Below the pieces are notes generated by a model. It searched no databases. It had not been told where the DNA came from and saw only the letters and a program-made list of their open reading frames with translations. From positions 1-64,000 of the forward strand of contig NZ_JARGDK010000014.1 of the NCBI RefSeq assembly GCF_029210495.1: a stretch of 64,000 nt of DNA, read 5' to 3'. The stretch comes from Pseudothioclava nitratireducens. GTDB lineage: Bacteria; Pseudomonadota; Alphaproteobacteria; Rhodobacterales; Rhodobacteraceae. Made by a program: the position numbers and the translations under genes. Positions within the stretch are counted from its first letter, which is position 1; the number at the start of each line of letters is the position of its first letter. Positions 51,977 through 60,520 of this stretch are shown piece after piece.

Positions 51977-52094
51977 GGTGCAGTCGCAGAAACCCGGCCG
52001 AACGCAGCGCCTACGACTTTCGCACAAGACCAGCGGCGCACGCATCGCCGCTTGAAGCCCTGCCCCGCGCTCCCTATATTGAGCGTGTTCCCTC

Positions 52095-52395
52095 GGGGAC
52101 TATGGACATAAACGCGCATGTAATAAACGGATCGGACCCGGGGGCGGTACCCGGCGGCTCCACCAAACATCCCTCGTTGGGGGCGAATGGGGCCGAAACA
52201 GGATCGACGAACGTCTAAAGATGTTAGCTTTGTCCCGGTGAGCGACCACCGTTATCGGTGCAAATTGTACAGTTGCCAACGACAACCGTGCTCCGGTCGC
52301 TCTGGCTGCGTAAGCAGCTCGGGTAACCGAAACCTAACTCCTTGCGCTTAGCAGCGTAAGGCGGGGCCCGCAGGAGCCTTGCAACAGAATCCTGC
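52095..52395 (+). ncRNA. ssrA: Transfer-messenger RNA, circularly permuted two-piece form
   Basis: The tRNA-like 3' half comes first and ends GGCTCCACCA at 52165. After a 23-base spacer, the 5' half begins GGGGCCG at 52189, and GGGGCC pairs with GGCTCC to form the acceptor stem, the mark of the permuted alphaproteobacterial gene. The tag frame runs 52275-52313 and reads ANDNRAPVALAA then TAA; the resume codon GCC follows TACAGTT. The precursor is cut to two RNAs held by base pairing. The outer ends given are approximate; a hairpin (GCAGGA/TCCTGC) with TCTTTC follows at about 52370-52410. tmRNA frees stalled ribosomes and marks their products for proteolysis. Confidence 0.93.
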
Positions 52396-52514
52396 ACCTT
52401 CCCCCCTCTTTCGGATCGAAATCCCGTGCGCTGGCGCGAAGATTCTCATGCGCTTTAACCTTACCGTAAAGCGACTCGGCGCAGTCTGCCCTCCGGACAT
52501 AGATGGAGTGGCCC

Positions 52515-52943
52515 ATGTCAAAACTCGATATTCTACAGGACTGGTTCGAAAAGGTCTGGATGCAGGGCGATATGGACGCCGTGGATGGCTTTTTCGCCCC
52601 GACGGTCTCGGCACATGGCATCATCGACGGGCTGGAGGCCCGGCCCGAAGATTTCAAAGAGTTCATTCCTGCCTTGCGCGCCCATACCCGCGATGTCGAA
52701 TTCACCGTGCTGCGCCATATCGATGCGGGAGAGTGGCTGTGGGTTCTGGTCGGGATCAAAGCCCGCAGCGCCGCGACGCTGGAACCGATGGAGTTCTCTG
52801 GGCAGTTGGCCATCCGCTTCGAAGGCGACAAATTCGCAGAGGCCTACAACCATTTCGACTTTGTCAGCTTTGCCGAGCAGATCGGGGCCATGCCGCCCGA
52901 TACGGTGCTCTTGTGCATGTCGGGCGAACAGCTATCGCTTTAG
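52515..52943 (+). CDS. SnoaL/NTF2-like protein
   Basis: A 142-residue alpha+beta cone protein of the SnoaL/nuclear transport factor 2-like superfamily: LQDWFEKVWMQGDMDAVDGFF at the N-terminus and VSAHGIIDGLEARPEDF, then the sheet ending FAEAYNHFDFVSFAEQIG. The fold is used for enzymes and for binding; without a typical catalytic pair here, function is unknown. ATG 52515 has GGAG six bases upstream, better than the ATG four codons earlier. It lies between ssrA and sspB. Confidence 0.7.
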   Translation: MSKLDILQDWFEKVWMQGDMDAVDGFFAPTVSAHGIIDGLEARPEDFKEFIPALRAHTRDVEFTVLRHIDAGEWLWVLVGIKARSAATLEPMEFSGQLAIRFEGDKFAEAYNHFDFVSFAEQIGAMPPDTVLLCMSGEQLSL

Positions 52944-53032
52944 AATGGGGCGCGTCCTTGTGCGACCGCGCCCCTCTTCCCTTGGCAGACGAATCCCCTA
53001 TGCTGTGCCCAAGCAGTCAGAATAGGTGGGGA

Positions 53033-53488
53033 ATGACGCGCAGCATCGATTACGGCAACCTGATGCACAGTGCCATGCGTGGCCTGATCCAGCAGGTTCT
53101 GACCGAAACCTCTGAGCACGGTCTGCCCGGCGCCCATCATTTCTTCATCACCTTCAACACGCAGCATCCCGATGCAGAGCTGGCGAGTTGGCTGCGCGAC
53201 CGCTACCCTGAGGAAATGACGATCGTCATCCAGCATTGGTTCGACAATCTCGAAGTGGATGATGACGGCTTTGCGATCACGCTGAATTTCGGCGACGCCC
53301 CCGAGAGGCTCCGCGTTCCCTTTGACGCCATTTCGACCTTCGTGGACCCTTCGGTCGAGTTCGGCCTCCGCTTTGAAACCCAGTCTTACGACGACGAGGA
53401 TGAGACCGAAGACGAAGAAGACGACGCCGATGATCCGCCGATCCGGGGCGATGCCGAAGTCGTCAGCCTCGATCAATGGCGCAAGTGA
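53033..53488 (+). CDS. sspB: SspB, alphaproteobacterial ssrA-tag adaptor for ClpXP
   Basis: Binds ssrA-tagged proteins and hands them to ClpXP. The 151-residue protein has the SspB core (about 1-115; GAHHFFITFNTQHPDAELASWL, HWFDNLEVDDDGFAITLNFG), an acidic flexible linker (DDEDETEDEEDDADD), and a C-terminal ClpX-binding tail ending VVSLDQWRK. The ATG at 53033 starts MTRSIDYGNLMH, as in Caulobacter-type SspB; the open frame upstream is not family-like. It is encoded 0.6 kb downstream of ssrA, the gene for the tag it recognises. Confidence 0.9.
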   Translation: MTRSIDYGNLMHSAMRGLIQQVLTETSEHGLPGAHHFFITFNTQHPDAELASWLRDRYPEEMTIVIQHWFDNLEVDDDGFAITLNFGDAPERLRVPFDAISTFVDPSVEFGLRFETQSYDDEDETEDEEDDADDPPIRGDAEVVSLDQWRK

Positions 53489-53654: not shown

Positions 53655-55049
53655 ATGACCGCGACCCGCACCGAAACCGACAGCTTCGGCCCGCTCGAAG
53701 TTCCCGCCGACAAATACTGGGGCGCGCAGACGCAGCGCTCGATCATGAACTTCCCGATCGGCTGGGAGCGCCAGCCGGTGCCGATCATCCGCGCGCTCGG
53801 CGTGATCAAGAAAGCCTGTGCGCTGGTCAACAAGGCGCAAGGCGACATGGAAGCGGAAATCGCAGACGCCATCGCGGCTGCCGCCACCGAAGTGATCGAA
53901 GGCAAATTCGATGACAACTTCCCGCTGGTCGTCTGGCAGACCGGCTCGGGCACCCAGTCGAACATGAATGCGAACGAGGTCATTTCGAACCGCGCCATCG
54001 AGATGCTGGGCGGCGTTATGGGCTCGAAAAAGCCCGTCCACCCCAACGATCACTGCAACATGGGTCAGTCCTCGAACGACACCTTCCCGACCGCGATGCA
54101 TGTCGCGATCGCGATGCAGGCGCGCGACGTTCTGATCCCCGGCCTCGAAAAGCTGCACGCGGCCCTCGCCGCCAAGGCCGAAGAGTTCAAGGACATCATC
54201 AAGATCGGCCGCACCCACACGCAGGATGCGACGCCCTTGACGCTCGGCCAGGAATTCTCGGGCTACGCCAAGCAAGTCGAGCGCGGCATCGAGCGGGTGA
54301 AAATGTGCCTGCCGCATATCTATGAGCTGGCGCAGGGCGGCACCGCCGTCGGCACCGGGCTGAACACCCGCGTGGGCTGGGACACCCGCGTGGCGGCCCA
54401 AATCGCCGAAATCACCGACCTGCCCTTCGTCACCGCGCCGAACAAGTTCGAGGCTCTGGCCGCGCATGACGCGATGGTGATGTTCTCGGGCGCGCTCAAG
54501 ACCGTGGCCGCCTCGCTCTTCAAGATCGCAAACGACCTGCGCCTTCTGGGCTCGGGCCCGCGCTCGGGTCTGGGCGAGCTGATCCTGCCGGAGAACGAAC
54601 CGGGCTCGTCGATCATGCCGGGCAAGGTCAACCCGACCCAAGCCGAAGCGCTCACCATGGTCTGCGCCCATGTGATGGGCAATGACGCCGCCGTCGGCTT
54701 CGCGGGCAGCCAAGGCCATTTCGAGCTCAACGTCTATAACCCGATGATGAGCTATAACGTCCTGCAATCCATGCAACTGCTCGGCGACTCGGCCTCGGCC
54801 TTCACCGACAACATGGTCGCAGGCACGCAAGCGAACGTGGCGCGCATCGACAAGCTGATGAAAGAATCGCTGATGCTCGTTACCGCACTCGCGCCGACCA
54901 TCGGCTACGACAACGCCACCAAGGTCGCAAAAACCGCGCATAAGAACGGCACCACGCTCAAGGAAGAAGCCATCGCGCTTGGCTTCGTGGATGAAGAGAC
55001 CTTCGACCGTATCGTGCGCCCCGAAGACATGATCGGTCCGAAAGGCTGA
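53655..55049 (+). CDS. fumC: Class II fumarate hydratase
   Basis: Interconverts fumarate and malate in the TCA cycle. The 464-residue fumarase/aspartase protein has [52 protein letters not shown] and the signature [15 protein letters not shown]. No iron-sulfur ligands, as expected for FumC. ATG 53655 has GGAGG seven bases upstream. A strong terminator follows 23 bases after the stop, so it is a single-gene unit. Confidence 0.97.
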
Positions 55050-60341: not shown

Positions 60342-60418
60342 TGGCGCGGTTGACGGGGCTCGAACCCGCGACCCCCGGCGTGACAGGCCGGTACTCTAAC
60401 CAACTGAGCTACAACCGC
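60342..60418 (-). tRNA. tRNA-Asp (anticodon GTC)
   Basis: A 77-base tRNA: acceptor GCGGTTG/CAACCGC, anticodon loop CTGTCAC flanked by the CCGGC/GCCGG stem, T-loop GTTCGAGCC, discriminator G and encoded CCA. Identical to the copy starting at 60444. Confidence 0.97.
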
Positions 60419-60443
60419 GCACAGCGCTCGGGCGATCCGGAAA

Positions 60444-60520
60444 TGGCGCGGTTGACGGGGCTCGAACCCGCGACCCCCGGCGTGACAGGCCGGTACTCTA
60501 ACCAACTGAGCTACAACCGC
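60444..60520 (-). tRNA. tRNA-Asp (anticodon GTC), second identical copy
   Basis: Same 77 bases as the downstream copy, with a 25-base spacer between them. Transcribed first, so both probably come from one precursor. Confidence 0.97.

Follow-up and report, generated by a model that had tools for sequence, protein, structure and literature searches.

The window, that is the whole stretch of 64,000 nucleotides that was analysed (contig NZ_JARGDK010000014.1 of Pseudothioclava nitratireducens, positions 1 to 64,000), carries on its plus strand a circularly permuted gene for a two-piece tmRNA (ssrA, 52070-52404), predicted by ARAGORN and matched by the Rfam models RF01849 (alpha_tmRNA, 52048-52398, 297.6 bits for a gathering threshold of 50, E = 7.9e-86, model positions 1-355 of 355) and RF04321 (151.2 bits). 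Both the permuted order and a tag reading frame ending in hydrophobic-Ala-Ala are present in the ARAGORN prediction. The tag frame, ANDNRAPVALAA plus stop, occupies 52275-52313 on the plus strand (206-244 of the gene) and is composed of an N-x-N head, a linker and a C-terminal LAA; ARAGORN and RF01849 thus agree with the permuted gene, coordinates and tag of the preliminary description. A sigma70-type promoter-like site of ssrA, TTGAAG-17-TATATT, was read from the sequence at 52052-52080 (plus strand), inside the RF01849 match. Profile searches of the same genome at E <= 0.001 returned one match for ssrA and one for SspB. Farther along the window, at 60342-60520 on the minus strand, lies a tandem pair of tRNA-Asp (gtc) genes near two tRNA-Val genes.

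The Caulobacter ssrA is the studied case of the alphaproteobacterial two-piece tmRNA; its tag is AADNDNFAEEFAVAA, and there too N-x-N stands about 12 residues from the C-terminus. The window gene resembles the alpha two-piece tmRNA (RF01849) in its permuted gene, its full-length model match, its tag frame and its C-terminal LAA, and has no visible structural difference from the Caulobacter gene. The tag had been described as differing from that of Caulobacter, which holds for the linker but not for the N-x-N head, the same in both.

The sspB gene (53033-53488, plus strand; ORF 53033-53485 plus stop) encodes a predicted adaptor of 151 amino acids that would hand tagged proteins to ClpXP. Its product matches the Pfam SspB family PF04386 (152.8 bits, cut-off 27) and the solved SspB chains 2qas (E = 1.5e-25) and 2qaz (E = 6.4e-23), which we take to be Caulobacter structures, as well as the related 2nys, presumably the Agrobacterium structure. 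With these alpha-type proteins it shares the PF04386 match, the core alignment, an acidic linker and a VVSLDxFR-type C-terminal peptide; it differs from them in having QHWF where they have QHQYW, the QHWF type being common to most members of the window's own family that were seen. The C-terminal peptide after the acidic linker, VVSLDQWRK (53459-53485, plus strand), follows a motif pattern common to relatives (VVSLDxFR type, seen in 276 out of 292 distinct SspB sequences) and is likely to be the ClpX-tethering motif. The window pair is an ordinary permuted alphaproteobacterial tmRNA with an ordinary alpha-type SspB. Elsewhere in the sample, SspB matches with one internal stop were seen in three genomes (G007:C3:7383-7802, G070:C12:23962-24447 and G079:C8:60765-61172), two of them not beside ssrA; these are possibly decaying genes or sequencing errors, and the three genomes were counted among those having SspB.

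The gap between ssrA and sspB in the window is 628 bp and contains one gene, SnoaL-like, at 52515-52943 on the plus strand (PF12680, 39.8 bits; PF07366, 30.8 bits). The earlier statement that ssrA lies just before sspB holds as to its upstream position, but the two genes are not adjacent, the SnoaL-like gene having gone unmentioned. A fumC gene follows sspB on the same strand (53655-55049, TIGR00979, 749 bits), and a gene for an ExaC-type aldehyde dehydrogenase lies upstream of ssrA on the opposite strand. Among 80 named loci, fumC was found downstream of sspB, at most 3 kb away and with the same orientation, in 76, and a SnoaL-like homologue in the same interval and strand in 21, 26 of the 80 being unable to show it since no tmRNA was called in the flank. 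In a congener (G401) the gap is 586 bp and the SnoaL-like product is 52% identical to that of the window; the two genomes are simple cases of an opened interval, the window with one SnoaL-like gene. Another locus, L151, comes from a record titled Nocardioides marinus DP1N28-1; this name seems not to fit the sequence, because its SspB is 66% identical to that of the window and its tag is ANDNRAPVALAA, and the assembly is possibly mislabelled or mixed.

For the distribution of the gene order, 387 genomes of the class were examined, and a tmRNA match was obtained in 370. SspB was searched in 230 of these 370, a non-random set made of the 150 with the best-scoring tmRNA matches and the first 80 others by handle. 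Both matches were present in 219 genomes, from which 6 of the window's own family were removed to give the 213 used for linkage. In 183 of these 213 genomes sspB follows ssrA on the same strand at no more than 5 kb, and in 162 at no more than 300 bp; in the other 30, the two genes are on different contigs (19, which cannot be judged) or elsewhere on the same contig (11). The median gap among linked genomes was 129, 114 and 115.5 bp in three sub-samples of the class. The order with a short gap on one strand is thus typical of the class (162/213), and the window shows it only loosely. As a control, smpB, which encodes the protein that partners tmRNA directly, was located in 79 of the first sub-sample's 80 genomes and was within 20 kb of ssrA in none of the 79 (on the same contig in 22), while in the same sub-sample sspB was within 5 kb of ssrA in 70 of 77.

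The survey of ssrA-sspB distances in relatives that had been proposed thus found linkage, and not the absence of it that was to count against the idea; the linkage is real and, with 183 of 213 genomes outside the own family, probably far older than was supposed. From these counts and the smpB control, the order ssrA-sspB, often followed by fumC, is considered to be widespread in the class and probably ancestral, and to have been opened within the window's own family. The available part of PMC4131195 surveys the neighbourhood of smpB and holds no mention of SspB, nor does the available part of PMC11915505. The ssrA-smpB neighbourhood of the former, as far as that part goes, is similar in that the tmRNA gene stands beside the gene of a partner, and different in that in our class sample the neighbour is a degradation adaptor and not SmpB. 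No report of the ssrA-sspB order was found among the matches listed in the open literature, most subscription papers lying outside this scope.

In the window's own family, 140 genomes were considered, of which 134 have both ssrA and sspB. The genes are within 15 kb of each other in 107 of the 134 and within 5 kb in 103, and only 23 have them within 300 bp; in 19 they are on different contigs and in 8 elsewhere. The median gap among linked genomes of the family is 1503 bp, against about 120 bp in the class. Inserted genes loosen the pair here, and they are mostly on the same strand, 40 of 53 loci of the family having only plus-strand frames of at least 90 amino acids in the interval. Eight inserted frames from four loci could be named, as SnoaL-like, ChrB-like, chromate-transporter and DUF1194 genes. 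A chromate-transporter gene is found between ssrA and sspB in each of the loci L128, L123, L159 and L196, some of which add a ChrB-like, a DUF1194 or a SnoaL-like gene.

Promoter-like sites were searched as sigma70-type sites only, with at least 9 of 12 matches. In the class sample they were detected in 67 of 109 regions upstream of ssrA (11.6% in shuffles) and in 11 of 109 short gaps (9.9% in shuffles). Close upstream of sspB they were present in 12 of 140 short-gap loci (7.4 expected, a slight excess) and in 5 of 71 loose loci (4.3 expected). Where sspB was not shown to be linked the count was 4 of 14 (0.9 expected), but 9 of these 14 genes are simply on a different contig, and just one of the 4 sites belongs to the 5 clearly separate sspB genes. 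An excess of promoter-like sites is thus seen before ssrA but not within the gap, which is best read as a sign of a joint ssrA-sspB transcription unit; at least part of sspB transcription would then start from the ssrA promoter, as one primary transcript. A terminator scan was set aside as evidence of read-through: one rule gave sites in 5 of 131 gaps (1.4 expected) and in 9 of 130 stretches after sspB, and under a second, sites followed 1 of 151 ssrA genes with tight linkage, 4 of 78 with loose linkage and 0 of 10 for which linkage was not shown (3 of these 10 being only on another contig than sspB). Since this last group lacks terminators as well, a lack of them in the gap says nothing.

The linkage could alternatively be a passive relic, the order having been inherited from the ancestor of the class with no benefit from co-expression or co-inheritance. 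This would agree with the 30 of 213 genomes outside the own family in which no linkage within 5 kb was shown (19 of them undecided, on different contigs) and with the inserted genes that part ssrA and sspB in the own family. We consider it improbable, given that the gap is about 120 bp in most sampled genomes while smpB has no fixed relation to ssrA, and that promoter-like sites show no excess in the gap.

What the adaptor may read in the tag was approached through tag sequences. The 213 genomes with SspB used here are the 219 with both matches minus 6 whose tag was not readable or not fetched (G281, G201, G094, G037, G074 and G106), with 5 genomes of the own family kept, so that this set differs from the one used for linkage. 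Their tags have the head ANDN in 196 of 213 cases and N-x-N in 211 of 213 (exceptions, G092 and G004). In 198 tags the codons of the ANDN head vary (first Asn, AAC 124 and AAT 74; Asp, GAC 107 and GAT 91; second Asn, AAC 122 and AAT 76), and because synonymous codons vary it is the peptide, not the RNA, that appears to be conserved.

In fourteen genomes from four families (f39, f83, f25 and f68), the SspB A1 profile matched nothing up to E = 1, although the same search recovered the SspB of G332; PF04386 likewise had no match in the eight of them that belong to the original sample. The other six (G316, G175, G251, G378, G285 and G216) were added from families already found to lack SspB, and for these the A1 profile alone was run. 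Five further genomes were left out, namely G170, G115, G476 (a draft of the own family), and G047 and G231, which have no readable tag. An assembly gap is likely in G170 and G115, because SspB is present in G076, of the same family, and in G332, of the same genus. G047 and G231 (family f47) gave no A1 profile match and only sub-threshold alpha tmRNA matches; they may have a highly divergent tmRNA or one of a different form. In one genome placed in the same class (G068, locus L379), a standard one-piece tmRNA was observed (RF00023, 152.9 bits) and no SspB was found.

The tags of the 14 SspB-less genomes, ten of which were seen in Rfam alignments, are AKSDYAEYALAA, AKRDYAEYALAA, AKSDYAEYSLAA, ANDDYAELPLAA, ANDDYAELALAA, ANESYAIAA (two genomes), ANESYALAA (two genomes), ANDKFALAA, ANDNELALAA, ANNNELALAA, AKNNQLALAA and ADDNFEYAMAA. 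N-x-N is found in only 2 of these 14 (G025 and G285), against 211 of 213 where SspB is present (Fisher test, p = 2.8e-16, a value that ignores ancestry), and in 1 of 8 when only the SspB-less genomes of the original sample are used. On a midpoint-rooted tree of 200 tmRNA sequences, which includes the tag itself and was used only for the grouping of the SspB-less families, f39 stands apart from f25 and f83, and the latter two are placed together in a clade of 11 that also contains three SspB-positive genomes. The separate position of f39 makes at least two losses of SspB likely, and the losses are likely to have been few events. At the level of presence and absence, co-evolution of tag and adaptor is supported, in that most sampled SspB-less genomes lack the N-x-N head, and SspB would be what selects for N-x-N. 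These natural absences of the adaptor indicate, in the tags found there, what SspB may have been selecting for.

The position of N-x-N in the tag was also considered. Short tags (up to 15 residues) have the first Asn of their N-x-N at a distance of 8-14 residues from the C-terminus. Long tags (entered as 20-40 residues) occur in 17 genomes with SspB, and 13 of these 17 have an N-x-N within that interval; 5000 shuffles of the residues of these tags gave 3.55 +/- 1.62 and never reached 13, the interval of 8-14 having been set from short-tag lengths once the pattern had already been noticed. Many long tags hold two or more N-x-N. In 15 of the 17 the frame opens where expected, behind a stretch resembling AUAA or AUAG; in G130 it should begin about nine residues earlier and in G092 it is doubtful, the C-terminal distance being unaffected in both. 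A total of 33 tags were entered by hand: that of G000 from ARAGORN, that of G092 from ARAGORN minus the first residue, those of G068 and G115 from the analysis that gave the SspB-less tags, and the remaining ones from a motif search, several of them being seen in Rfam alignments. Presence or absence of N-x-N and its spacing, taken together, fit an SspB that would read N-x-N at a fixed spacing from the end bound by ClpX, and a candidate recognition rule for the alpha-type adaptor can be proposed, N-x-N at 8-14 residues from the C-terminus.

Genomes with long tags (loci L213, L288, L262, L204, L205, L242, L246, L250, L257, L267, L335 and L358 among others) are mostly small, and their tags often repeat the N-x-N block and still end in Ala-Ala. 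Tandem heads of the NDN or N-x-N type were observed in L258 (G117), L354 (G044), L373 (G332) and L370 (G115), as in ANDNAQFVAANDNFVVEGDIAIAA; such tags are possibly two-site tags. According to the available part of PMC8512704, a doubled AANDENY in E. coli brings no significant gain in affinity, which speaks against a simple benefit from two heads.

A second alternative is that N-x-N owes its conservation to something other than SspB (RNA structure, the start of tag translation, or SmpB) and that its loss in SspB-less genomes reflects only the general decay of small genomes. All 14 SspB-less genomes are indeed small (1.2-1.7 Mb), and odd tags also occur in several small genomes with SspB. Among genomes of at most 2.1 Mb, ANDN is present in 40 of 54 tags with SspB and in 1 of 14 without (p = 6.8e-6; 1 of 8, p = 1.5e-3, for the original sample), and because only 40 of these 54 genomes keep ANDN, part of the change in tags is considered to be general to small genomes. 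N-x-N, by contrast, is kept by 52 of the 54 small genomes with SspB and by 2 of the 14 without (p = 1.1e-9; 1 of 8, p = 5.7e-7). This difference, the variation of synonymous codons in the head, and the long tags, in which N-x-N is away from the start of the frame and at its usual C-terminal distance in 13 of 17, make this alternative distinctly unlikely, even more so than the passive relic, and leave selection by SspB as the preferred reading.

The weakest explanation, that linkage holds together a lineage-specific tag and SspB groove and that this accounts for the contrast between the window pair and that of Caulobacter, has in its favour that most SspB proteins of the own family carry QHW[FY] in place of the QHQ[FY]W of most others and that QHW[FY] goes together with a tag linker that is mostly [RK]AP in this family, but it is very doubtful, since QHW[FY] and [RK]AP mark one clade and would count as one event at most, AP-containing linkers also occur with QHQFW- or QYQF-type SspB, the tag head is nearly constant (ANDN in 196/213, N-x-N in 211/213) and linkage is looser in the own family than in the class. 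The two signatures are best seen as clade markers, inseparable from ancestry, and the co-divergence of the window tag and SspB put forward in the preliminary description is left unsupported. The suggested correlation of SspB residues with tag residues was computed on 200 genomes with usable SspB, and covariation with the middle residue of N-x-N was strongest at window SspB positions 14, 101 and 69 (Q to E), with p = 3.5e-6 to 7e-4. It was discounted and not taken as support, the 13 departures being lineage-bound (in the own family or in odd-tag lineages) and the p values having no tree correction.

The preferred reading of the locus, which we hold to be probable, is that a class-wide and probably ancestral ssrA-sspB order has been loosened here by a SnoaL-like gene, and that SspB binds N-x-N and ClpX binds LAA, at a limited distance that allows hand-over. 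In this scheme, tmRNA would add Ala and ANDNRAPVALAA to stalled chains, SspB would hold the N-x-N head of the tag, and ClpX would hold SspB through its C-terminal peptide VVSLDQWRK; the hydrophobic-Ala-Ala end (LAA) would then reach the ClpX pore, the limited distance from N-x-N to LAA letting SspB hand the substrate over to ClpX. These steps rest on established knowledge of SspB in E. coli and Caulobacter. For the broader proposition we see roughly even chances: an ancestral transcription unit led by an RNA gene, in which tag and adaptor may form one evolving module, with N-x-N at a set distance, a rule that would still hold in tags lengthened to 20-40 residues, many of them with an additional N-x-N, and would collapse with the loss of the adaptor.

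In E. coli, the gene context is sspA-sspB, unlike the ssrA-sspB order found here. The E. coli tag, as described in the available part of PMC8512704, is modular, AANDENY binding SspB and ALAA binding ClpX; the likeness lies in this modular tag, with a head for SspB and a C-terminal end for ClpX, which fits the N-x-N spacing observed here, and the difference in the head AANDENY, which has no N-x-N.

Because one partner is an RNA gene, the ssrA-sspB pair could escape neighbourhood surveys that consider proteins only. The pair of the window is ordinary in itself, and what its context would provide is a gene pair found across the class, together with a supported candidate rule for what the adaptor may read in the tag.
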